IMG/VR virus record: IMGVR_UViG_3300021420_000018
Location: 1-64,000 of that record
Direction: 5' to 3' (one strand)
DNA length: 64,000 nucleotides
Origin: a virus
The position numbers and the translations under genes are program-made. Positions within the stretch are counted from its first letter, which is position 1. Every line of letters begins with the position of its first letter. Positions 1,450-49,617 of this stretch are shown piece after piece. Under the pieces are notes generated by a model. The model did not search any database. It had not been told where the DNA came from and saw only the letters and a list, made by a program, of their open reading frames with translations.

Positions 1450-1749
1450 TCAAAGTTCAATCCCATACGATCTAAGCGCGTAATTCCTTTCGAGCATGCG
1501 ATCGATCTGTTGCCGCCAAGTCACGCATGGCGCGCCGAGTGTGCGAGCCCCCCAACAGCCAAGACACAGATAGCCCATGCAACCCTTGCACTGGTTCGGC
1601 ATATTCTCTGGCGTCCAGCCCGGGGGGATGATCACGATCTTATTGCAATGAGAACAGCTGCATGTATCATGTTCTATGGGGATTTTATATGTCTTCCCCG
1701 TTGGATCACCTGGATCGGTTATAATGCCGTACCCTTGAGGTTTAAACAT
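1450..1749 (-). CDS. Zinc-finger microprotein (MFKPxGYGII family)
   Basis: 99 residues with CSCSHC, CKGC and CLGC pairs, consistent with two zinc knuckles. Its N-terminus MFKPQGYGII recurs in a truncated copy at 2235-2357. Its start codon overlaps, on the opposite strand, that of the LAGLIDADG gene. The role is unknown. Confidence 0.65.
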   Translation of the reverse strand: MFKPQGYGIITDPGDPTGKTYKIPIEHDTCSCSHCNKIVIIPPGWTPENMPNQCKGCMGYLCLGCWGARTLGAPCVTWRQQIDRMLERNYALRSYGIEL

Positions 1750-2332
1750 GCTCGATCCCCGCTATATTGCTGGTTTGTTTGATGGAGAGGGATGCGTATC
1801 TGTATGTTATTCCCGATTGCGCTATCGCGTTGATGGCAAAACACCCATCATGGCGCTTAAGATCGTAGTCCTGATTTCCAATACGTACAAACCTATCCTG
1901 GAGAGACTGAAACGTACATACGGTGGGAGCATCTGCCGTACAAGGCGCGATGAGCGAGTCGGGCATAAAACGGGATGGAGCTTGAGATTTACTTCTACCG
2001 CGACTCAAAAGCGGTTCTTGAAGGTTATAGTTCCGCATTTGATTATCAAGCGGCGTCAAGCAAAGCTTGGAATGCTCTATCTCACAACAGCCCTGATTGG
2101 CGGACATAGGCCTACTCCGGAGCAATGGAAGATTAGGACTAAGGTTGCGCTCGAATTGAAGAATCTTAATCGTCGTGGCCTTTCTAAACCGCGCAAGCAT
2201 TTTGTTCCGTCCAGACCAAGTAAAGCCTTCAATCCTAAATTCCGCTATGGCAAGCGCGAACTTCATCGCCGCATGAAACGCATGCGTAACGCCCGATGGC
2301 ATCCTGAACGTAATCGCCGCGTTCAACGATGA
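1748..2332 (+). CDS. Free-standing LAGLIDADG homing endonuclease
   Basis: 194 residues. The N-terminus has the LAGLIDADG helix YIAGLFDGEG, followed by a basic body typical of single-motif homing nucleases that dimerise. It is the only rightward gene in this stretch and sits exactly between an intact zinc-finger gene and a truncated paralogue, which suggests recent insertion. It would cut DNA of related phages lacking it. Confidence 0.85.
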   Translation: MLDPRYIAGLFDGEGCVSVCYSRLRYRVDGKTPIMALKIVVLISNTYKPILERLKRTYGGSICRTRRDERVGHKTGWSLRFTSTATQKRFLKVIVPHLIIKRRQAKLGMLYLTTALIGGHRPTPEQWKIRTKVALELKNLNRRGLSKPRKHFVPSRPSKAFNPKFRYGKRELHRRMKRMRNARWHPERNRRVQR

Positions 2333-2357
2333 TTCCGTAGCCGCCAGGTTTAAGCAT
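2235..2357 (-). pseudogene. Truncated paralogue of the zinc-finger microprotein
   Basis: A 40-codon frame starts MLKPGGYGII and continues to one CVSC knuckle before a stop. It matches the beginning of the gene at 1450-1749 but lacks its C-terminal two thirds, and it lies under the 3' end of the opposite-strand homing endonuclease. It is either a remnant left by the endonuclease insertion or a very short functional gene. Confidence 0.5.
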
Positions 2358-2450
2358 CAGGCTATACTCTTCCTGCCATGCGGCCTAGTCGGGCTACGAC
2401 CCGAGTCGGCGACAGTGAAACGAGGTCTGAGCCGCATGGCTTAAGCATCA
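2351..2450. repeat. Direct-repeat-flanked inverted-repeat element
   Basis: TTAAGCATCAG occurs at 2350-2360 and again at 2441-2451. Between them are a perfect 10-bp inverted repeat (GCCATGCGGC 2375-2384, GCCGCATGGC 2431-2440) and an inner hairpin TCGGG/CCCGA (2389-2404). It could be a structured RNA or a small mobile remnant linked to the neighbouring homing endonuclease. Confidence 0.5.
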
Positions 2451-2627
2451 GCGTGGCACGCGCTCCAGAACATCATCGTTTCTTTGCTTATAGCAAGTGC
2501 ATTGCCAGTAGTGAGCGTTGGAATCCCAAAATGTTTTGTCCGGCGTTTGATAAGTCGCAGTTTCGCCGCACTGGGGACAGATGGCTTTCGTTCCGCAATC
2601 CGGACAGTTTGGATACGTGGCGCTCAC
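2448..2627 (-). CDS. Zinc-ribbon microprotein, GTG start
   Basis: 59 residues beginning at a GTG that overlaps the stop of the methyltransferase gene (GTGA). CPDC and CPQC in the first 20 residues and a CTC near the C-terminus suggest a zinc ribbon. Translationally coupled to the gene upstream. Function unknown. Confidence 0.65.
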   Translation of the reverse strand: MSATYPNCPDCGTKAICPQCGETATYQTPDKTFWDSNAHYWQCTCYKQRNDDVLERVPR

Positions 2628-3250
2628 GTATTCATCCGATCAAACTCTTCGCGCAGCACAGGCGGCAGATACAACCTGACATCTGCAAGAACATCTGCGC
2701 GTGGACGCAGTGGTGCGATCTGCGGTGGAACCGGAAATACGTAGCCGAATACATCACCGCCCGGAAGATCGGTGAATCGTTGATGTTTGAAGCCCATCAA
2801 TGCATCAAGCTGCTCGAATGAAGGCCAGCCAAAATCAGATATCCGGAAAGTGCTCCAATCATCGATCAGGATCACGGGATTCGACGCCCACTTGTGATCC
2901 TTGATGATTTGCAATTCCTCGAGCAGTGGACATAGCCCGTACCCTTTCGGTGCAGTGCCATTCTTCCAGTCGATGTCACCTTTGACGAAATGCGCGTCGA
3001 GCCAGAAGACCGTGGAGATCGTCGGGTTGATTACTTTGCGCAGGATGTCGGGACTATTGCCGTGGTAGATGCGGACATTCAAGCACTCTTTGAAGCGCTC
3101 ACAGGCAGCTTCATAGCGTCCTTCGTGGAGTTCGATGGAAATGCACTCGGCGTAGACCTTCGAAGCCGCAGCTAGTGTCTTACCTTCGCCAACGCCTGTT
3201 TCAATGAAGCGCTGGGCGGGCCAGCGAGTGAAGTCGTCGAGATGCCCCAT
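2624..3250 (-). CDS. Class I SAM-methyltransferase-like protein
   Basis: 208 residues. FIETGVGEGKTL resembles the glycine-rich SAM-binding motif I, with an acidic residue after the next strand (SIELHEG), WLDAHF and VILIDDW. This is the pattern of the small Rossmann methyltransferases seen in sugar-modification clusters. It resembles the gene at 13053-13595. The substrate is unknown; a glycan or polysaccharide is plausible from the glycosyltransferases nearby. Confidence 0.6.
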   Translation of the reverse strand: MGHLDDFTRWPAQRFIETGVGEGKTLAAASKVYAECISIELHEGRYEAACERFKECLNVRIYHGNSPDILRKVINPTISTVFWLDAHFVKGDIDWKNGTAPKGYGLCPLLEELQIIKDHKWASNPVILIDDWSTFRISDFGWPSFEQLDALMGFKHQRFTDLPGGDVFGYVFPVPPQIAPLRPRADVLADVRLYLPPVLREEFDRMNT

Positions 3251-3291
3251 ATTTTGAGACTATCATAATTTGGGAACAGCGAAAACTGGAA

Positions 3292-3867
3292 TCAGCCACT
3301 CGCCGCTTGAGCTCGCTCGATTTGGTGAGGGCAGATGCCGTCACCGCTTTCCTTCGCCAGATGACAATTCGCACAAAGCATCTCGAAGTTGTCTTTCGGA
3401 AAACCTGAGTCTTTCAGCCATTTATAGAATCGGCGGCCTGTGAATTGCCTTGGATTACCGAGAGTTTTACGATGCACAGCGCCATCGCCATTCACGTGAT
3501 GGATCGTCATAAATCTGAAATGCGTATCACCGCAGCAGGCGCACTTGCGGCCGTAGGCTTCAAACATTTCCAACTTGAGTTCCTGATTGCGCTCATTGTT
3601 TTGTTGACGAAGATATTCGTCGCCAACTTTCTCGCGCCATCGTTCAGCACGAACATTGGCGTTCTGCCGATACTCTGGAGATTCAGCACGCCTTTTGGCT
3701 GATCGAAGGCGCTCATATTCGCTGAGATGTTCGCGGTTTTTCTCAGTCCACGCTCTTCGGCCCTGAAGATACTTCTCACGATTATTCTCACGCCACAGCT
3801 TCTGCCGCGCAGCGTGTCTGCGGCGAGCTTCCTCTTCCGTTTCACCCGGTCTGCATCGTGTGGCCAT
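3292..3867 (-). CDS. HNH endonuclease
   Basis: A long basic N-terminal region rich in R, E and K precedes CACCGDTHF, TIHHVNGDG and NFEMLCANCH, giving the zinc-stabilised HNH fold with the paired His of the first strand. I chose ATG (MATRCRPGE) rather than the upstream start. Likely a free-standing homing-type nuclease. Confidence 0.8.
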   Translation of the reverse strand: MATRCRPGETEEEARRRHAARQKLWRENNREKYLQGRRAWTEKNREHLSEYERLRSAKRRAESPEYRQNANVRAERWREKVGDEYLRQQNNERNQELKLEMFEAYGRKCACCGDTHFRFMTIHHVNGDGAVHRKTLGNPRQFTGRRFYKWLKDSGFPKDNFEMLCANCHLAKESGDGICPHQIERAQAASG

Positions 3868-3942
3868 TGCCACCTCCGCGATGCAGTCTATCACAAAGTT
3901 TAGATTATTGGGTATGACAGGACGCTAAGTCCTTTGGTTTCT

Positions 3943-30291: not shown

Positions 30292-31676
30292 GCGTCTTCA
30301 GAAACTTTGCTCACGGCCAAAACGCAAGCGCAGTGGGGATGCTGCGGCGGCTTGGTTGCTCCGGAGAAGAACTTACTGCCGATCTCTACTTCCTGATCCT
30401 GATTCATAAGGCATTCCGGGCAAGGGTCGAGATTGGACGTGAGCCACTTCACTTTCTCTACGACGCCGGACTTTTCCCAGGTTGAGAAGTTGCTGGCCGA
30501 TTGCGCCATCGCGATCTCGCTGCGCGCAATCATCTTGGCGCGCCCCAAACTGAAAATGCCTTCGCCTTCGGTTTCCTCGGCAAGTGCCTCGCGTATGTCA
30601 TTGACGACTTCCGATATCGGAGTTTCTTTCGTGAACGAGTCGGCGACGATCTGGCGGATCTTGTCCCGGGTAGTTTGCGAGATGGCCCAACGCGCATTCG
30701 GATTTTCGACCAGGTTGCCTTCGTTGTCGAACTTCTTGCCGATCATTTCCGCGGCTCGATGGGTCGCATACTCTTGCGCGCTGCGATTGGCCGAAGCGAT
30801 CAGTTTGGAGTTCGAGACATCGATCTGCAACAGGCCGTGGCCGGCGCCGGAGAGTGCTGCCGATTCCAAGGACGAGCGCACTTGCGACGGCAGCGCCAGC
30901 CATTGAGCTTCTAAGACGGTGATGAGCCGATCCGTGAATGCTTGGGCATCGTCCGCATCTGCCTTGGCTAATAGCTTCGCAAACTTCTTGGAACTGTTCG
31001 GGCCGGCGACGCCATTGGCCTGCGCGAATGCAGAACTCTCGGCCTCTTTGTCGGACTTGCCATCTTTCTTCGCACGCTCGTACGCGCTGTTCCAGACGGC
31101 CACCCATTGCTTGCGCTTGGATTGCCGGACATAGTCCGGCGCATCGCTCGCCGATGAATACGGCTTCTGCAAAAACGTTTCGCGATAGCCCTTTTCCAGG
31201 TCCGTAAAAGTTTTCTCCCTGCTTCGAAACTGCAAATCACGCAGCGTGATGGTCTGGCCTTTCAGAGGATTCTCGCCCTGGGCGTGTTTCTGCGCCATTC
31301 CTTTTTTGAAATAGCCGATCGTCAGGTGCGGCTGAAAAGTGGGATGAGGGTCGGTGTGCGGAAGTGCGGCCAGGGCGTCGTGCAGCTTAACTAGCTTTTC
31401 GCTCTCCAGCAAAAATACCAGCGGCTCGCCTTCATCGTTCTCGGGGAAAGCGTGAAGATCTCCGAACGTTACATCGACTGTGCCCGTGCCTTTGGTGATG
31501 GCGCTCACCTGGTCGGGAGTGACTTCAGGATGGAAACCCCATCGCACCGTTACGTGCGGAGTCAGTTCACGGCCCTTCGGCGCGAGCTCGCTTTCCTCGA
31601 TGCCCTTTTGCAAATCGAGCACGCGTTGCGCATCAACCGGAGACAAGGTGAACTGAACTGCGCCGTATTTAGCCAT
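30288..31676 (-). CDS. 2H phosphoesterase fused to head morphogenesis protein
   Basis: 462 residues. The N-terminal ~170 have both 2H motifs (LTPHVTVRWGF and FQPHLTIGYF), the fold of 2'-5' RNA ligase-like, cyclic-phosphodiesterase and some anti-CBASS enzymes. About 180-230 is ChaB-like (YVRQSKRKQWVAVWNSAYE). The rest is an SPP1 gp7/Mu F-type minor head protein ending DPCPECLMNQDQ and PPQHPHCAC. The enzyme domain would therefore be in the virion. It follows the portal by direct overlap. Confidence 0.85.
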   Translation of the reverse strand: MAKYGAVQFTLSPVDAQRVLDLQKGIEESELAPKGRELTPHVTVRWGFHPEVTPDQVSAITKGTGTVDVTFGDLHAFPENDEGEPLVFLLESEKLVKLHDALAALPHTDPHPTFQPHLTIGYFKKGMAQKHAQGENPLKGQTITLRDLQFRSREKTFTDLEKGYRETFLQKPYSSASDAPDYVRQSKRKQWVAVWNSAYERAKKDGKSDKEAESSAFAQANGVAGPNSSKKFAKLLAKADADDAQAFTDRLITVLEAQWLALPSQVRSSLESAALSGAGHGLLQIDVSNSKLIASANRSAQEYATHRAAEMIGKKFDNEGNLVENPNARWAISQTTRDKIRQIVADSFTKETPISEVVNDIREALAEETEGEGIFSLGRAKMIARSEIAMAQSASNFSTWEKSGVVEKVKWLTSNLDPCPECLMNQDQEVEIGSKFFSGATKPPQHPHCACVLAVSKVSEDA

Positions 31677-34600
31677 TACGACAGATTCTGTTCCTCGAGA
31701 CTCTTGTGACCGAACAGCAGCGTCGCCTTCCAGCCGCTCGGCGCGTTTTCGTCGGGGTTCAGCACGAGCATGCCGCCCTCGTCAAGGTCGAGCACGCCAT
31801 CATCGCCATCGAACATTTCCATCGACAGCTCTCGCAGACATGAGCCCGAGAATACCGTGAGAGTCGGCCCGCCGCTCGCCAGCCCTTCTGATTTGATGTC
31901 GGTCATAAAAGCAGTCAGGCGGGCAATGAATACATTCCTCGACTCGCCGCCTTCCGGAGCTTCGTCTGGATTCTTCATCAGCCGCTTTACTTTTTCTTTG
32001 TTCGGAGCCTTCTTCTTGCCGGCGAGCACGCCCAGGTTCCAGGTCTTGGCGCGATCATCTTCGACAACCCGCGGATGGTAGATCGATCCGCTGGATACGA
32101 TGTCGGCCGTCTCTTTGGTGCGCTTGAGCGTGGCGCAATAAATCTTCCGGAGAGGAACTTCGCTCAAGTATTGCTGGGCCGTGATCAGCTTCACGCGGCC
32201 GTCATCGGAAAGCGGGAAGTCAAGCCAGCCGTCTGAGCGATGCACCGGATCGAGAGCGGTGCGGCCGTGGCGCATCAAGAAAAGCGACTTGTACGTGTAA
32301 TCAACCGCAGCTTCGGCTTTCTGCAGCGGGGCCAGGCCTTCGCGGAAAGCTTTCTCCAGCGTTTGGTCCTCGAGCCTCACACTCTTCTCGGAACGTGCCA
32401 GACGCGCACGTATCGACTCCGCCTTGCGCAGCTTGAAGAAGCGGTTGGTTTCCTCGCGCGCCATGGTCAGTTGCTTGGTGAAAATGCTTCCAAGCACATG
32501 CTCGATCTGATGAATCCCCTGCTGGCTTTCAGGCGTGAGCATGGATGGATCGATACGGGATCCATGGCGCTTGGCAATCTGATCGTCGGCGATAACTTCG
32601 TGGATGGTCTTCACCAACTCTTCGTGACTGGTCTTCTGCCCATCGAGCGATTCTTTGCCGTTGTCGACGCCAACGTTTCGGCCAGTCGAGCGGCCTCCGC
32701 CGGCTTCCTGCGCCACAGGCGTTCCCGATCTTCCCGCATTGTGGTCGCCGTCATTGCCGTTATTCATGGGCCCGCCAGCTCCAGGAGCATCGGGATTCGG
32801 CGTAACTGGATGCGGCTTGGGTCTGCCGGAATCGTCAATCTGCACGCCAGCCTGAACAGAGGGAATGCCAATCGGCATGAATCCCGTTCCGGTAACGATG
32901 CCCAGGCGATCCGCTTCCGGTTCCGGCCGCAGCTCTTCGCCGACGCGCTTGCGCGCTTCGTTCGGCGTCATCACACCGCTCTTGACGTACATCGTGATAG
33001 CCGCGGCGTTCTTGAGTGGATCCGGCTCCGCGTAAGGATTCATCGCGATTTCGTACTCGATGAATCCCATCTTTTTCTGGATGATGTAGTCGATGACGCC
33101 TTTGAGCCAGGTCACCCAGGGCAGCGTGCCTTCAATCGTCGACGCATCGCCGGCAGCCCTGCCTTCGGTGCGGATCATGCGGATCAAACGCTGTGGACTT
33201 GTGCCGTACGCAAAACAAATCTGGCGGATATGCTTCTCGTCGTACACGCCGGCAAGCAACGGTTCCTTCGAGAAAATAATCTGATCTTCCTTGCCAGGCT
33301 CGTTGAATCCTTGCACCAGACGCCACTGATTGCGCGCCGCCAGGTTGCCGGCGAGCTGCGAGTTCATCCAGTCCATGGCTTCGGTGATGCGCTCAGGAGA
33401 AGTGCCGCGAGGAACGACTTGCACGACGCCCGGGATCGATCCTTCCTCGTAATAAGCGCGCACGAACTTCAGTCTGGAAATGCCGACCATGATTTCTTCG
33501 GCGACTTGTTCGGTCGGGGAATTTCCTGCAAAACATGCCTTGCCGTTGCGGCGAACATAGACAACGCTGTTCGGTACAGTTAGACAGTAAACTTTTCCGG
33601 AGTATGGCTGCCGACGAGTTTCGAATTTCTTGGTATAGCTACCTCTTTTATGAACGGCAACCACATAGTGCGCACGTGAGTTAATAGCCAGAATTGTGCG
33701 ACGCATTCCATTTCTGCCAATGATAGTGCGGTCGCGAAGAATTATCTTGCGAATGGTGGCGTACACTCCCATCTTCTGCGCTAATTCCTGTAATTGATCA
33801 GCAAGACGCTTACTGGAAGTGAAGGCTCTTGATCTGCTGGCATCTCCATCGCCTAACCAGAAATGATGCCAAAAAATCTGCAACTGGCGCGATGTCGCAT
33901 TCATGATTTCTTGTGGAATGTATTTGTCGCCAGCATGGCCAAGGGGCCGCAGGTGGCGCGCCAGAAACTTGGATCCGATGATAAATGCATCGTTACTATA
34001 GAGAACAGGACCGTTGTTTATCTTGTGCAGCAAGGCGCGCATTTCAGAGATTCGCTTGTTGTTTTTAGATTGTGCGATGTAGACGTAATTGCCTTCACAA
34101 CTTCCTTCGGCAAGATAGAGGCCAATCAACGCACAATAATCATCGCCGCTCATCTCCAACACACGGCCATCGTGGATATGTCGCTGCCGATTTCGGACGA
34201 CCGCTTGATGGGCAGTCGCCAAGGCAACGCCGGCGACTGCGCCGATCTGCGAATAAGACAATCCTTGCGATCGTAGTTCGCGACAGCGAGCGTCGAGTTG
34301 AAGTCGGGAGACATGCCGATCTTCCGCAATGGCAGGGAAGCGCTTCGAATTAACTTCTACGCCATGCCATATAGACGTTACTGGAATCCCAGTTGCAGAA
34401 GTACAGTGTTTCTCTAATTCGGCTGCAGATACTAAGACATCGCCAGAACGGTGTTTGTTACCACCGAGACTAAAAGGCAACTTATCAATGACCATCCTGT
34501 GCTGTGGTGTTACTTCGAGATCCAAAGAACGAGAGGAGAATCTAATTAAATCTCCGACATAGTCATAGCAATGCTTGGCCGTAGCGAGCTGCCACTCGAA

Positions 34601-35446
34601 AGCTTTCGTCTTAAGATTACGCGTAGCTATTCGTTCTGTCTTGATATCGACATCCTGGAACAACTTCCATCCGGATTCAGTCAAGACTTCCGTCCCGTCG
34701 CGATAACACTGCCCATACAATTGGGAAGCCAGTGTGTTACGGGGAGCGATATTCCTGGGTTTGTAAACCAATTGGTCTGTTGTGAGGTTCACAAGGGGTA
34801 TCCCCCACCAGTTTTGCGCATAGGCGGGATTCGGCGGTACCGGCGTCAGTCCGTTCTCGTCGATGTAACGCACGATCATCTCGCCGCGCAGCACCACCAT
34901 TTCGGCAAGTTCGTTACGGAAGTTTTTCCTGAGCAGGATCGACGAAGCATCGATGACCAGCAGATCATCGAGCAACGGACGCAGCCAGTCCTGCCAGTTG
35001 TGCTCGCGGTCGGGATACTCGAAAAACCGATTGAGCAGGAGAAGTGTTGCATCGCCTTTAGAGCGAATGGCCACATCGCTGCGCGTTTCGCCTGGCTTGG
35101 CGCGCATCTGAATTTCCCAGGGCACGCGGCTTATGGTGTCTTTGACGTTCTCGATGCAGACCGCTGCGAGTGGATATTTGGCGAGAGCCTTTAAATCGGC
35201 TGCACTATACTCAGCATCCTGCCGCGGCGTCCACCACAAGTTCTGGCCGGCCCAGTATTGGTAGGCGCGTGGTTCGGTGCCTGGAGGCCCGAGAGGCTTA
35301 ATGGGTTGAAGCGGTGAATACCAGGAATCCTGCTCGATGCCGCGAATCTGATCAGGTGGCCGCTGGTAAAGCGACTGGCCGTATCGCTGAATGGCACCGA
35401 CCATTTGGCCGATCGGCCGGATAACCAGATCGCCGCGCTTTGCCAT
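31676..35446 (-). CDS. Portal protein with intein and C-terminal histidine phosphatase domain
   Basis: 1,256 codons. Portal extein: N-terminal ~246 residues (ENVKDTISRVPWEIQMRA, DLLVIDASSILLRKN) and the part after the intein (SPTEQVAEEI, ICFAYGTSPQRLIRM, GVMTPNEARKRVGEELRPE). After the intein and a Pro/Gly linker, a C-terminal ~190-residue domain has LMRHGRTA and GWLDFPLSDDGR of the phosphoglycerate-mutase/histidine-phosphatase fold. The expected second-half His is replaced (VFSGSCLRE), so catalysis is doubtful. After splicing the portal would be ~860 residues. Confidence 0.9.
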   Translation of the reverse strand: MAKRGDLVIRPIGQMVGAIQRYGQSLYQRPPDQIRGIEQDSWYSPLQPIKPLGPPGTEPRAYQYWAGQNLWWTPRQDAEYSAADLKALAKYPLAAVCIENVKDTISRVPWEIQMRAKPGETRSDVAIRSKGDATLLLLNRFFEYPDREHNWQDWLRPLLDDLLVIDASSILLRKNFRNELAEMVVLRGEMIVRYIDENGLTPVPPNPAYAQNWWGIPLVNLTTDQLVYKPRNIAPRNTLASQLYGQCYRDGTEVLTESGWKLFQDVDIKTERIATRNLKTKAFEWQLATAKHCYDYVGDLIRFSSRSLDLEVTPQHRMVIDKLPFSLGGNKHRSGDVLVSAAELEKHCTSATGIPVTSIWHGVEVNSKRFPAIAEDRHVSRLQLDARCRELRSQGLSYSQIGAVAGVALATAHQAVVRNRQRHIHDGRVLEMSGDDYCALIGLYLAEGSCEGNYVYIAQSKNNKRISEMRALLHKINNGPVLYSNDAFIIGSKFLARHLRPLGHAGDKYIPQEIMNATSRQLQIFWHHFWLGDGDASRSRAFTSSKRLADQLQELAQKMGVYATIRKIILRDRTIIGRNGMRRTILAINSRAHYVVAVHKRGSYTKKFETRRQPYSGKVYCLTVPNSVVYVRRNGKACFAGNSPTEQVAEEIMVGISRLKFVRAYYEEGSIPGVVQVVPRGTSPERITEAMDWMNSQLAGNLAARNQWRLVQGFNEPGKEDQIIFSKEPLLAGVYDEKHIRQICFAYGTSPQRLIRMIRTEGRAAGDASTIEGTLPWVTWLKGVIDYIIQKKMGFIEYEIAMNPYAEPDPLKNAAAITMYVKSGVMTPNEARKRVGEELRPEPEADRLGIVTGTGFMPIGIPSVQAGVQIDDSGRPKPHPVTPNPDAPGAGGPMNNGNDGDHNAGRSGTPVAQEAGGGRSTGRNVGVDNGKESLDGQKTSHEELVKTIHEVIADDQIAKRHGSRIDPSMLTPESQQGIHQIEHVLGSIFTKQLTMAREETNRFFKLRKAESIRARLARSEKSVRLEDQTLEKAFREGLAPLQKAEAAVDYTYKSLFLMRHGRTALDPVHRSDGWLDFPLSDDGRVKLITAQQYLSEVPLRKIYCATLKRTKETADIVSSGSIYHPRVVEDDRAKTWNLGVLAGKKKAPNKEKVKRLMKNPDEAPEGGESRNVFIARLTAFMTDIKSEGLASGGPTLTVFSGSCLRELSMEMFDGDDGVLDLDEGGMLVLNPDENAPSGWKATLLFGHKSLEEQNLS
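33521..34708 (-). other. Portal intein with LAGLIDADG endonuclease domain
   Basis: 396 residues between YGQ and SPTEQ. Begins CYRDGTEVLTESGW (block A) with LEVTPQHRMV (block B), ends ACFAGN before Ser+1. The endonuclease has two LAGLIDADG helices (LIGLYLAEGS, FWLGDGDA). A HTH-like segment (YSQIGAVAGVALATAHQ) precedes them. The penultimate residue is Gly, not His, a known but rarer arrangement. Confidence 0.85.
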
Positions 35447-45775: not shown

Positions 45776-46186
45776 CTATTCGGAGGTGGGTGTTGCCGCG
45801 ACATCCAATGTTTTTGCTGCTCTCGCTGCAATCTCCGGAGGCAACGGCTCTTTGACCAAAACGATTTCGATCCTGCGATCCGCCGGCCCGATCTCAACAC
45901 GCTGCGCTGCTTTGCCATCCGTCGCTTCGCGCATCTCGCGCGCTGGACCAGGATGACCTTTCGTTACTGCTTCACGAATCAGACCAAGCGCAACTGCGTC
46001 GGCCATCAAAGAGTTTTCATTCAGCGGATGAAAAAATGCGCTCGCCTTTTTCAAAACGCGCAACAGTTGTGGGGGGATGGTCTCGTTTAGCTGCCGAACA
46101 TAAGCCTGGCGCAGCGCAGCAGCCGACTGGAGACCGGAGGGTCTTGAGTTGTTTGTATTTGCGACTCCGTTGGTTCTATTGGCCAC
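45776..46186 (-). CDS. DUF5681/small-terminase-like protein
   Basis: 136 residues with GTG start chosen to avoid the terminase start. The C-terminal half (ADAVALGLIREAVTKGHPGPAREMREATDGKAAQRVEI) resembles DUF5681 proteins, often placed as small terminase subunits. Divergent from the large subunit. Confidence 0.5.
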   Translation of the reverse strand: MANRTNGVANTNNSRPSGLQSAAALRQAYVRQLNETIPPQLLRVLKKASAFFHPLNENSLMADAVALGLIREAVTKGHPGPAREMREATDGKAAQRVEIGPADRRIEIVLVKEPLPPEIAARAAKTLDVAATPTSE

Positions 46187-46292
46187 GTTTAGTTTCGCCG
46201 TCTCGTATAAGTGTAGTAATACCAGAGTCTTGGGTTTTCGCGCAAGTGGGGGATTCGCCAGTGTTCCGGGTTTGTGGTGTAATGATCGCGGA

Positions 46293-49052
46293 ATGAGTGA
46301 AGGGCAAGAACCGACCAAGCCGTTTGTGGTAGCAGCTCCGAAAGTAAAAGGGGGAGCGCCGCGAATATACTACCAGTGCACCAAGCATGTTTCTCATGCG
46401 TGGTCGTCGGACGACATGGAGACCGCGTATTGCTATCGGTGCAAGAAGACCCGGATGGAGTTATTGATTCCGGCGCCCACGATTGAAGAGGCCAGTAACG
46501 TAATCGATGATCTGGTAAAGGAAGCGCAGGGCGATCCGTGTCCGATCCATGTAAGGAATGTAGATGGATTTCCAGAACAGAAAGAGTTGGTGGAATCCGC
46601 GAGAAAACGAAAGATGGTGCGAGCGGGAAGACGTGGAGGGAAGACCACGAGTGCGGCGACTTTGACCGTGAATCACTTTGCCAAAGGGGGAAGGGTTTTG
46701 TATGCGGTGCCGGTGGTTGACCAACTGGAGAAGTGGTGGAAAGAAGTTTTATGGAGTCTGCGGGAACTGATCAATGCCGGGAGGGTATACAAGAACGAGA
46801 CCGAGCACGTGATTGAGTTCCGGGGGACCGACAACCGGATCAAGGGGAAGACGGCGTGGAATGCCGATACGCTCAGAGGTGACTGGTGCACGCTACTGGT
46901 TTTGGACGAATACCAGCTGATGGATGAGACGGCGTGGACCGAAGTGGGTCAGCCGATGATGATTGACAAAGACGGAGATGCGGTCTTGATTTACACGCCG
47001 CCGAGTTTAAGTTCGCGGTCGATCAGCAAAGCCGTGGACAAGCAGCATGCGTCCAAGATGTTCAAGCGGTGCTCGGCCGATCCGGAATGGCTGTGTTTGC
47101 ATTTTTCATCGAGGGCCAATCCGTTTCTGTCCAAAGAGGGAATCGATCGGGCCGAACGCAATATGAGCAAGCTCGCGTTCATCCAGGAGATTGAAGCCGT
47201 GGATACCGACGAAGTGCCGAATGCGTTGTGGACCAGAAAAGTGTTGGACGATTCCCGGGTGCTCGCGCCAACGGAATGGGACCGCAAAGAACGGAAGTTT
47301 GTGATACCGCCAGCGCTGAGGGCGAAATATCCGGAGGCGCCGGATGCGCCGGTATTTCCTGGCGGTTATCGCAGGATCGTGGTGGCCATTGACCCTTCGG
47401 GATCGACAACCACGGAAGTGGGGATTGTGGCGGCAGGAGAAGCGTTTGACGGTGAGTATTACATCCTGTTTGACGAATCGATGTTTGCGTCACGGCCAAA
47501 AGCGTGGGCGGGCCAATCGATCAGGCTTTATGAAAAATGCGGCGCTGACCGGATCGTGGCCGAACGGAACTTTGGCGGCGACATGGTGGAAGAGACCTTG
47601 AAGACCGTGGATGAGAATATTCCGTATAAAGACATTGTCTCGAGCCGCGGTAAGCTCGTTAGGGCCGAACCGGTGAGCTCGCTGTTTGAGCATAACCGCG
47701 CGCACATGGTTGGCGAGTTTCCGGAACTTGAAGATGAACTCGTGAGCTACACGGGAATGCCAGGTGAGCGCAGTCCTAATCGCCTGGACGCTTGCTTTGT
47801 AAAAGGCACGAAGGTGTTGACCAGGCGCGGGAACATCCCCATCGAAGCCGTTCGAGTTGGTGACTTTGCTTGGACGCGCCAAGGCTGGAAGCGAATCCTC
47901 AAAGCTGGAATCACATCAGCGCGAGCGCCGGTGACAACGCTCCAGTTAAGTGATCGTTCGATTACCGGAACAAGCTCTCACCCTATTTGGGCTATAGGCA
48001 AGGGATTCACAGCTATGGACGCATTGGTTTGTGGTGATACAATGCTGACGTGCCAAAGCGACAGCCGCAGCAAACTAAAGAGCGGCCCGAAACCATCTAT
48101 TTTCAAGGCATTCCGTACCACAGATATCCGGACAGCAAGCGCCGCAATCAACGCGTTTATTATACAGGCAGTAAGAATGGCCGAACTGTTATGTTGCACC
48201 AAGCCATCTGGGAATATCATCGTGGGCCGATTCCGAAAGGCTATCACGTACATCACGTCGACGATGACCCACTCCACAATGAGATTTCAAATTATGAATG
48301 CTTATCCCCGGCCGCGCACAACTCAAAGCTTCGGGGCAAATCCAGCGATCGGAGGCGACGCCATTTGGCAGACGTTCGACCGCTTGCATCGGAATGGCAC
48401 TCCAGTCCGGAAGGAATCGCTTGGCACCGCAACCACGGTAAACGCACTTGGCGTGGCCGCAAGCCGCAGCCAAAAGGGAAATGTTTGTCGTGCAATGAGC
48501 CCATCAAAGGATTCAAAGATAAACGCTTCTGCAGCCGAGCCTGCATGCAGACAGCCTATAGAAAAAACCACACATATCAGTGTTTGGTCTTGTGCCCCAT
48601 TTGCGGCAATCCGTTCTGGCAAAGCAAATATCGGCCACGACCGAAGTTTTGCTCCCGTCTATGTGCTTGGGAAGCACGACGCAGGGAGCGCACCGGTTTA
48701 CAATTTGGAAGTTGAGGACGCACACGAATATTTCGCCAACGGGATCCTTGTTCACAACTGCGTGTTCGCGATCATGGAGCTGTTAGGGCCCGGTGCGCTC
48801 AGCCTGGTCGAACTGTACAAGCAGGGTGGAATGGAGAAATACATGCTGCCCAAAACAACTGCCGCGACGTCCTTGGCCAGTGTGGCCACAAACAGCAAAA
48901 CTCCAAAATGTCCGCAGTGCCATCAGATTACGCTGCAAAATAACGTGGCCGGCCAAATCCGCTGCGGACATTGCGGATTCCAGCGGCCGATACCAGGGCA
49001 GCCCAACGTGCAGCCGATTGGCGGCCGGCGCGCGATCGATCTCCGCAAGTAA
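46293..49052 (+). CDS. terL: Terminase large subunit interrupted by an intein
   Basis: 920 codons, ATG chosen (MSEGQEPTK). N-terminal Cys region (CTKHVSHAW, CYRCKKT), ATPase with MVRAGRRGGKT (Walker A) and LLVLDEYQL (Walker B), and nuclease motif IVVAIDPSGS. The intein interrupts SPNRLDA/CVFAIMEL near the nuclease active site. The C-terminus adds a zinc ribbon (CPQCHQ...CGHCG). Packages DNA into proheads after splicing. Confidence 0.9.
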   Translation: MSEGQEPTKPFVVAAPKVKGGAPRIYYQCTKHVSHAWSSDDMETAYCYRCKKTRMELLIPAPTIEEASNVIDDLVKEAQGDPCPIHVRNVDGFPEQKELVESARKRKMVRAGRRGGKTTSAATLTVNHFAKGGRVLYAVPVVDQLEKWWKEVLWSLRELINAGRVYKNETEHVIEFRGTDNRIKGKTAWNADTLRGDWCTLLVLDEYQLMDETAWTEVGQPMMIDKDGDAVLIYTPPSLSSRSISKAVDKQHASKMFKRCSADPEWLCLHFSSRANPFLSKEGIDRAERNMSKLAFIQEIEAVDTDEVPNALWTRKVLDDSRVLAPTEWDRKERKFVIPPALRAKYPEAPDAPVFPGGYRRIVVAIDPSGSTTTEVGIVAAGEAFDGEYYILFDESMFASRPKAWAGQSIRLYEKCGADRIVAERNFGGDMVEETLKTVDENIPYKDIVSSRGKLVRAEPVSSLFEHNRAHMVGEFPELEDELVSYTGMPGERSPNRLDACFVKGTKVLTRRGNIPIEAVRVGDFAWTRQGWKRILKAGITSARAPVTTLQLSDRSITGTSSHPIWAIGKGFTAMDALVCGDTMLTCQSDSRSKLKSGPKPSIFKAFRTTDIRTASAAINAFIIQAVRMAELLCCTKPSGNIIVGRFRKAITYITSTMTHSTMRFQIMNAYPRPRTTQSFGANPAIGGDAIWQTFDRLHRNGTPVRKESLGTATTVNALGVAASRSQKGNVCRAMSPSKDSKINASAAEPACRQPIEKTTHISVWSCAPFAAIRSGKANIGHDRSFAPVYVLGKHDAGSAPVYNLEVEDAHEYFANGILVHNCVFAIMELLGPGALSLVELYKQGGMEKYMLPKTTAATSLASVATNSKTPKCPQCHQITLQNNVAGQIRCGHCGFQRPIPGQPNVQPIGGRRAIDLRK
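47793..48758 (+). other. TerL intein
   Basis: 322 codons in frame with TerL. Block A CFVKGTKVLTRRG; block B TGTSSHPIW; C-terminal VYNLEVEDAHEYFANGILVHN then Cys+1, so all splicing residues are present. Its middle does not read like an endonuclease in this frame; an HNH gene occupies it in another frame. Confidence 0.9.
48050..48715 (+). CDS. HNH endonuclease nested out of frame in the TerL intein
   Basis: 221 residues in the +2 frame relative to the intein. VMLHQAIWEYHRGPIPKGYH then VHHVDDDPLHNEISNYECLS is an intact HNH domain; two C-terminal zinc fingers follow (CLSCNEPIKGF...FCSRAC, CPICGNPFW...FCSRLC). The intein frame stays open through all 666 bases. The start may lie in another position, but the domain is unmistakable. 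Confidence 0.9.
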   Translation: MPKRQPQQTKERPETIYFQGIPYHRYPDSKRRNQRVYYTGSKNGRTVMLHQAIWEYHRGPIPKGYHVHHVDDDPLHNEISNYECLSPAAHNSKLRGKSSDRRRRHLADVRPLASEWHSSPEGIAWHRNHGKRTWRGRKPQPKGKCLSCNEPIKGFKDKRFCSRACMQTAYRKNHTYQCLVLCPICGNPFWQSKYRPRPKFCSRLCAWEARRRERTGLQFGS

Positions 49053-49084
49053 GCGTTTACCCACACTTCAGTTTGTGCTATGGT
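49048..49084 (+). promoter_or_regulatory. Operator plus promoter
   Basis: AGTAAGCGTTTACC overlaps the terL stop and contains a -35-like TTTACC; 17 bp later TATGGT. The next ATG is 8 bp further on. Confidence 0.5.
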
Positions 49085-49092
49085 CTGCGGCC

Positions 49093-49344
49093 ATGAGGAA
49101 AGCATTGCCTGGCAAAACCAGGAAAGAGGCCAAGCGTAACACTTATGCGCTAGTAGATGATCCCGACGCGCTATATTTTTCGTTGTGCGTTACAGAAGGC
49201 ATGGAGACGCGAATCATCATCACCAGACCGGCGAAAGCAAAGCAGTTCGGCGGGGTCAACATGACCATCTCGGAGTTCTGGCGCATGCTGGAAAAGCATT
49301 TACAGAACCAAAGGAGAAAACATGAAAGAAAAGTCCTCCAGTGA
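49093..49344 (+). CDS. Small basic protein
   Basis: 83 residues; strand-rich middle (DALYFSLCVTEGMETRIIITR) and basic C-terminus. Possibly leaderless mRNA. Confidence 0.55.
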   Translation: MRKALPGKTRKEAKRNTYALVDDPDALYFSLCVTEGMETRIIITRPAKAKQFGGVNMTISEFWRMLEKHLQNQRRKHERKVLQ

Positions 49345-49456
49345 AAAAGTGCGCCAGGACGTGTGCGAACAGAGCGGCCATAGCCTCACGTCGTTCGAGG
49401 GCAAAATCGTTTGCGAGATCCGCGGCGACGGCATCAAGCTCAGCCAAGTCGCATGA
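49322..49456 (+). CDS. 44-residue microprotein
   Basis: Overlaps the previous gene; preceded by AAGGAGAAA. MKEKSSSEKVRQDVCEQ...SQVA, no domain. ATGA coupling to the next gene. Confidence 0.5.
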   Translation: MKEKSSSEKVRQDVCEQSGHSLTSFEGKIVCEIRGDGIKLSQVA

Positions 49457-49617
49457 ACTGGTTTCACCGGCACGGGCCTTGGGAAGTGGTCGGCGCGTCG
49501 TGCGACGAGATGACGCACTACATCTGCGGCGAACACTACAAGGTTTTCGCCGTCGCCGTTGACTTCGCACTGATCTGGGGCTTTGTACGGGCCTATATGT
49601 TTCTGAGGAGCCTGTGA
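49453..49617 (+). CDS. Small membrane-type protein
   Basis: 54 residues; hydrophilic CDEMTHYICGEHYK then a C-terminal helix (VFAVAVDFALIWGFV). ATGA start. Confidence 0.55.
   Translation: MNWFHRHGPWEVVGASCDEMTHYICGEHYKVFAVAVDFALIWGFVRAYMFLRSL

Follow-up and report, generated by a model that had tools for sequence, protein, structure and literature searches.

A predicted HNH endonuclease gene nested out of frame within a terminase intein, a layout common to diverged phages

INTRODUCTION

To our knowledge, inteins are described as bearing an endonuclease in frame or not at all. The gene for the terminase large subunit (TerL) of a prophage in the IMG/VR virus record IMGVR_UViG_3300021420_000018 raises the question of whether one stretch of an intein can encode two products, a splicing protein in one frame and an endonuclease in another. 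Positions 1 to 64,000 of this record (64,000 nucleotides, hereafter the window) were analyzed. A reading of the window from its letters alone, referred to here as the sequence-only reading, had proposed that a mini-intein at 47793–48758 captured an HNH endonuclease through out-of-frame insertion. Our analysis of the locus and its relatives supported an HNH gene nested out of frame in an intein predicted to splice, with one stretch apparently encoding two products. The nested HNH gene in a splicing-type intein was recovered at about 140 loci; it is not a capture peculiar to the window intein, as the +2 arrangement is common to very diverged phages.

RESULTS

The terL precursor of the prophage (46293–49052, +; 919 codons, 919 aa) is a single frame that runs in translation from the TerL N-extein, continuously through the intein, to the TerL C-extein. 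Its product matched the PHROG profile phrog_2, terminase large subunit (E = 5e-25), and Pfam Terminase_6C (PF17289, E = 6e-9). The intein (47793–48758, +; 322 aa, TerL residues 501–822) is inserted directly after SPNRLDA, a conserved motif of the C-terminal nuclease domain of TerL, with C1 at 47793, HN at 48758, and the +1 Cys at 48759. Hidden Markov models (HMMs) of relatives recognized both splicing halves. The N-terminal half (47793–48044, +; 116 bits) has an intact C1 and an intact TSSH in block B, and the C-terminal half VYNLEVEDAHEYFANGILVHN (48690–48758, +; 60 bits) contains block F/G, HEYFANGILVHN, followed by the +1 C. The splicing blocks are complete at both ends, as the sequence-only reading had claimed, and the intein coordinates hold. 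Among relatives, H63 of block B was invariant and T60 nearly so; C1 was kept in 75 of 76 inteins, and 74 of the 76 ended in Asn with Cys or Ser at +1.

In the AlphaFold model of the intein (alignment of 51 sequences), the Hint ends had a predicted local distance difference test (pLDDT) score of about 97, and residues 90–284 were mostly below 50. These residues form an intein-frame linker (48060–48644, +) that overlaps the HNH gene, corresponds to no known domain, and is predicted to be mostly disordered, with 10-residue blocks at a pLDDT of about 40–52. Foldseek matched the model to mini-inteins and Hint domains, with the gp41-1 and DnaX inteins as the best matches, supporting a Hint/mini-intein fold. 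Intact residues and predicted fold together support 47793–48758 as a splicing-type mini-intein. A group I or II intron carrying an endonuclease open reading frame (ORF) was also considered and rejected, with no Rfam match at E ≤ 1 in 46000–49500.

The HNH endonuclease gene (48050–48715, +; 221 aa) uses the +2 frame with respect to that of the intein, starts with GTG, and stops within the C-terminal splicing half; a TGA stop at 48035–48037 (+) closes its frame just upstream of the start. The product matched Pfam HNH_3 (PF13392; E = 1.1e-12, 47.9 bits against a gathering cut-off of 24.8) and a PHROG profile for HNH endonuclease (E = 7.6e-21). Within the HNH_3 core (LHQAIWEYHRGPIPKGYHVHHVDDDPLHNEISN..H; residues 48–90, 48191–48319, +), H68, H69, N77, N81, and H90 were unchanged in all 56 aligned sequences. 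Two Cys4 zinc-finger motifs follow, the first (C145, C148, C161, C165; 48482–48544, +) invariant in the 56 relatives and the second (C182, C185, C201, C205; 48593–48664, +) nearly invariant. AlphaFold gave a mean pLDDT of 93.3 for this protein (alignment of 56 proteins). Foldseek with this model gave no match at E ≤ 0.001, so the assignment to the HNH class rests on sequence. Both the intein frame and the HNH frame are open across the overlap 48050–48715, which bears out a 221-residue HNH protein with zinc fingers in the +2 frame as well as a TerL frame that stays open for all 666 bases. An endonuclease in frame, the canonical trait of endonuclease-containing inteins, was not found; the HNH gene was in the +2 frame in the window and at all classified loci.

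Searching with the intein returned six viral contigs and several phage records. The +2 HNH gene was present in three mutually identical contigs plus one further contig, and in all four phage records examined (TJE1, Highwayman, a Rhodobacteraceae phage, and a faecal phage); the deposited annotations of TJE1 (L008) and Highwayman (L009) give terL as one gene and miss the nested HNH gene. A search of viral contigs with a single HNH sequence for the closest copies gave no match. The family was reached with a profile built on seven HNH proteins, from which the best 80 loci among at least 529 relatives were taken, and loci with both Hint halves were called by HMMs of the two halves. All 81 such loci in the HNH-based set had a single continuous ORF and an HNH gene in the +2 frame. 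In the reverse search with an intein profile, the HNH gene was in the +2 frame in 75/75 newly fetched loci, and the intein frame was open in 74 of them. Because the HNH-based and intein-based searches select opposite frames, each checks the other. Their union, among the matches listed, comprised 140 distinct inteins, nearly all from phages, although both searches were ranked by similarity and kept best matches only, so that these counts are neither unbiased nor a measure of frequency. A Halobacterium plasmid bearing phage genes provided one further case. No in-frame HNH was found among the relatives classified in the two sets. Since the same layout recurs at about 140 loci, a sequencing indel that conceals a single frame, the objection anticipated in the sequence-only reading, is excluded. 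Among genomes of the host clade, one weak N-half match but otherwise no relative of the window element was found in the host family (200 genomes), and none in the host phylum (396 genomes); a search of genome contigs gave two C-terminal matches only. A close pair for the window copy itself was therefore unavailable for study.

Constraint on the two frames was assessed in 76 distinct inteins, with 15,324 intein-frame codons of overlap. The intein frame contained no stop in these codons, and the third frame contained 1,214. With the HNH protein kept, 153 intein-frame stops were expected when its own synonymous codons were shuffled, and 346 when synonyms were drawn at the third-position GC content of the locus. 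For the window copy alone, 1.8–2.9 stops were expected (probability of none, 0.04–0.08). The open intein frame is thus mildly unlikely in the window copy and overwhelming evidence across the 76 relatives. Free-standing relatives of the HNH gene, which have no intein frame to protect and therefore serve as a clean control for stop avoidance, had 31 stops among the 1,443 codons of the corresponding frame, with all seven affected.

The phase of substitutions was then read from frame-blind DNA alignments of 16 close pairs; because the pairs share ancestry, the counts are not independent events. Differences at intein codon positions 1, 2, and 3 numbered 288, 214, and 507 in the N-terminal splicing half but 494, 943, and 670 in the overlap, where the peak at position 2 corresponds to HNH position 3. 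A codon-based substitution count agreed with this switch. The turn of the substitution phase to the HNH frame indicates that the HNH protein is conserved and that the intein frame is, for the most part, simply maintained without stops. The comparison of both frames across homologues suggested by the sequence-only reading therefore gave an unequal result: the HNH protein is the constrained one, and the intein frame serves in its centre chiefly as a disordered linker, free of stops, between the Hint halves.

To look at separate expression of the HNH gene, start codons in the 76 inteins were picked blind to upstream signals. The starts (66 ATG, 7 GTG, and 3 TTG) were conserved in position. A Shine–Dalgarno match of at least 5 nt preceded 27 of the 76, against 4.0 expected. 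In 17 of the 76, the start was preceded by a TANNNT hexamer whose end lay exactly 6 nt upstream of it, against 0.9 expected from background and 6.1 once local codon usage and the encoded amino acids are taken into account (z about 6); the hexamer coincides with intein codons of a conserved Gly-Asp motif, and the loci are related. In the window, a promoter-like site (TGGACG-16-TACAAT, with TG before the −10; 48016–48043, +) places TACAAT at 48038–48043, ending 6 nt before the HNH GTG. With this spacing, the message would begin at the start codon of the HNH gene. An internal promoter giving a leaderless message is thus put forward for the window copy as a candidate and a testable idea, not as a result.

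Evidence on mobility came from two Acinetobacter phages. The exteins of Highwayman were 99.5% identical to the terL of Acba_21, which lacks exactly the 981-bp intein, and 8 of the 15 mismatches lay within 12 bp of the insertion point, a clustering that is expected if the flanks were copied together with the intein. Acba_21 was used in place of phage BP10, which was rejected as the empty-site partner of Highwayman, its TerL being only distantly related (27% over 201 aa). HNH and N-intein distances were correlated (Mantel r = 0.47; largest of 2000 permutations, 0.11), indicating that the HNH gene and the intein diverged together, and in 74/76 inteins the HNH stop fell within the final 75 nt. In the HNH tree, the window copy was placed in a supported clade with L002, L015, L016, L018, and L024. 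Free-standing copies were scattered among nested ones, indicating that the gene switched between the two states several times; the tree gives no order as to which state came first. Judging from these sequence comparisons, the HNH protein probably spreads the intein, and homing activity is predicted for the window copy.

A single exception to the open intein frame was found, at L134 (1675–3966). Here, a TerL–IntN ORF (IntN, the N-terminal intein half; 1675–3369) overlaps an HNH gene (3276–3896), a separate ORF carries the C-terminal intein half and the TerL C-terminus (IntC–TerL-C), and the intein frame has 12 stops. From its sequence, L134 is read as a split (fractured) derivative of the intein/HNH pair.

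Two related contigs (L006:5001–5873 and L007:5001–5873) have an intein in a helicase-like gene, at VVADE|C..N|CTRLKG, within which a DUF559 nuclease is encoded in frame +1. They differ from the terL case in nuclease fold, frame, and host gene, which suggests an independent origin of the nested layout, as far as two related contigs go. A search for further DUF559-in-intein cases returned nothing beyond these two seed contigs.

The HNH family of the window also has free-standing members next to terL or terS. At L022 (1–800) and L025 (322–1281), a free-standing HNH gene lies directly 3′ of the terL stop and is preceded by a second LDAxRYA-like stretch (LDATRYA and LDTMRYT), similar to the target motif in terL.

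Elsewhere in the prophage of the window, the portal gene (31676–35446, −; 1256 aa) has an apparent in-frame LAGLIDADG-type intein at about residues 247–643 (PF14528, E = 5e-7), and a histidine phosphatase domain (PF00300, E = 6e-21, residues 1055–1207) is fused at the C-terminal end of its product. With the nested intein of terL, both kinds of intein would be present in one prophage.

DISCUSSION

On the sequence evidence and structural models, the window locus is very probably a class-1-type mini-intein with an overlapping, independently translated homing endonuclease in place of an in-frame domain. Translation of terL would yield one precursor, in which the Hint halves would fold together around a disordered linker of ~195 residues, and the intein, given its intact residues and fold, would splice out to leave active TerL. 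Translation starting within the intein, in the +2 frame, would yield the HNH protein separately, as the sequence statistics suggest. In many relatives, an internal ribosome-binding site may serve this purpose; in others, including the window copy, an internal promoter may perhaps give a leaderless message. The HNH protein would cut terL copies that lack the intein, at the conserved motif of the nuclease domain, and repair would copy the intein with its nested HNH gene into the cut, as suggested by the empty site and the flanking differences in one relative. Selection would keep the HNH protein and, in addition, the absence of stops in the intein frame.

A free selfish HNH gene that overprints the linker by chance, being no partner of a now-immobile intein, could account for the free-standing copies beside terL or terS and for their interspersion with nested ones on the tree. 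Such a gene would not be expected to diverge in step with the N-intein (r = 0.47), to be absent from the Highwayman empty site exactly as one unit with the intein, or, in 74 of 76 cases, to stop within the final 75 intein nucleotides, and we regard this explanation as unlikely. Somewhat less likely still is programmed ribosomal frameshifting near 48035–48050, which would produce the HNH protein as a fusion to TerL–IntN, not by internal initiation. The overlapping frames and the short gap from the upstream stop in the HNH frame to the HNH start would suit it, and frameshifting is generally known to be common in phages; however, the conserved start position and the excess of Shine–Dalgarno matches, or the −10-like hexamer at a fixed gap, argue for internal initiation, and a fusion would put IntN on the nuclease.

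Decay of endonucleases is generally known for inteins, and the HNH gene might accordingly be a fossil, an in-frame domain that an indel has shifted into another frame and that is now degenerating in a mini-intein. This is very improbable, as the HNH frame is intact and under purifying selection across the 76 inteins, the catalytic and zinc residues are invariant in 56 sequences, and no in-frame HNH was found among the relatives classified. We give hardly any credence to a natural split intein, with the halves as separate products and the HNH gene free in between: L134 does have such a layout, but a single ORF spans both halves in the window and at all other two-half loci.

Several points weigh against a nested, separately expressed endonuclease in a working intein. 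The Pfam intein models score under their gathering cut-offs for the window copy (Hint_2, 26.9 against 28.4; Intein_splicing, 22.6 against 35.8), the model matches being split by the linker. The fourfold-site rate at HNH position 3 is lower in the overlap than in the N-terminal half (0.46 vs. 0.56), so the intein-frame linker may bear some extra constraint. The ribosome-binding site of the window HNH gene is weak, and the gene starts with GTG. The empty site is known from the Highwayman/Acba_21 pair, not for the window copy, and the searches yielded no closely related terL without an intein to compare with that of the window. The similarity ranking of both searches belongs here as well.

Fractured genes, in which split inteins occur with a free-standing endonuclease, were reportedly described by Dassa et al. 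in 2009. The window locus resembles them in having an endonuclease gene between two intein halves, but its intein is one continuous ORF; in L134, a member of the same HNH family accompanies the split form. Acinetobacter phage BP10 has a free-standing HNH gene of this family next to its terminase gene (51% to the Highwayman HNH), which, unlike that of the window, is outside any intein and full of stops in the equivalent frame.

Inteins in TerL are known from mycobacteriophages, where they are located at sites in the ATPase domain and several have been shown to splice and cut (PMC5050341). The window intein is likewise in terL; however, its HNH gene is in a separate frame and its site is a nuclease-domain motif, whereas the mycobacteriophage endonucleases are within the intein polypeptide. 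Similar in coding layout are the actinobacteriophage methylases, in which the ShiLan domain and Pacc40 are hidden HNH insertions (PMC11855218, Genes 2025). Like the window case, these combine a stop-free host frame with an HNH protein that has zinc fingers, a GTG start, and a different frame. The methylase insert has no splicing domain and is predicted to stay in the methylase, leaderless initiation was proposed, and a disjunct distribution was taken as homing (PMC11855218); the window HNH gene, by contrast, is flanked by two intact Hint halves. To go by its title ("Actinobacteriophage inteins ... non-canonical architecture") and by its citation in PMC11855218 on the subject of overlapping actinobacteriophage frames, a 2025 preprint by Gosselin, Arsenault, and Gogarten (bioRxiv 10.1101/2025.01.02.630785) may describe related cases. 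Full-text searches, with a coverage that omits bioRxiv and most subscription journals, yielded no report of an intein whose endonuclease is out of frame, and there is a real risk that part of the nested arrangement has already been reported.

These results suggest that the nested layout is a widespread, largely unrecognized kind of mobile element. The chances are about even for the wider proposal that many inteins of bacterial and archaeal viruses have an out-of-frame, independently expressed endonuclease under selection for a stop-free linker, that this arose at least twice (with different folds and frames), and that it yields split inteins once stops enter the linker. If about 140 sampled viral inteins, from phages of diverse hosts and one archaeal plasmid, hide an endonuclease in this way, many inteins regarded as long-linker or degenerate may be fully mobile, and existing annotations would miss the nuclease. 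As splicing protein and nuclease are kept apart in the nested layout, each could evolve without misfolding the other. Nested inteins would also provide a natural replicated experiment on overlapping genes, with free-standing relatives as the clean control, and a concrete path by which a continuous intein could become split.
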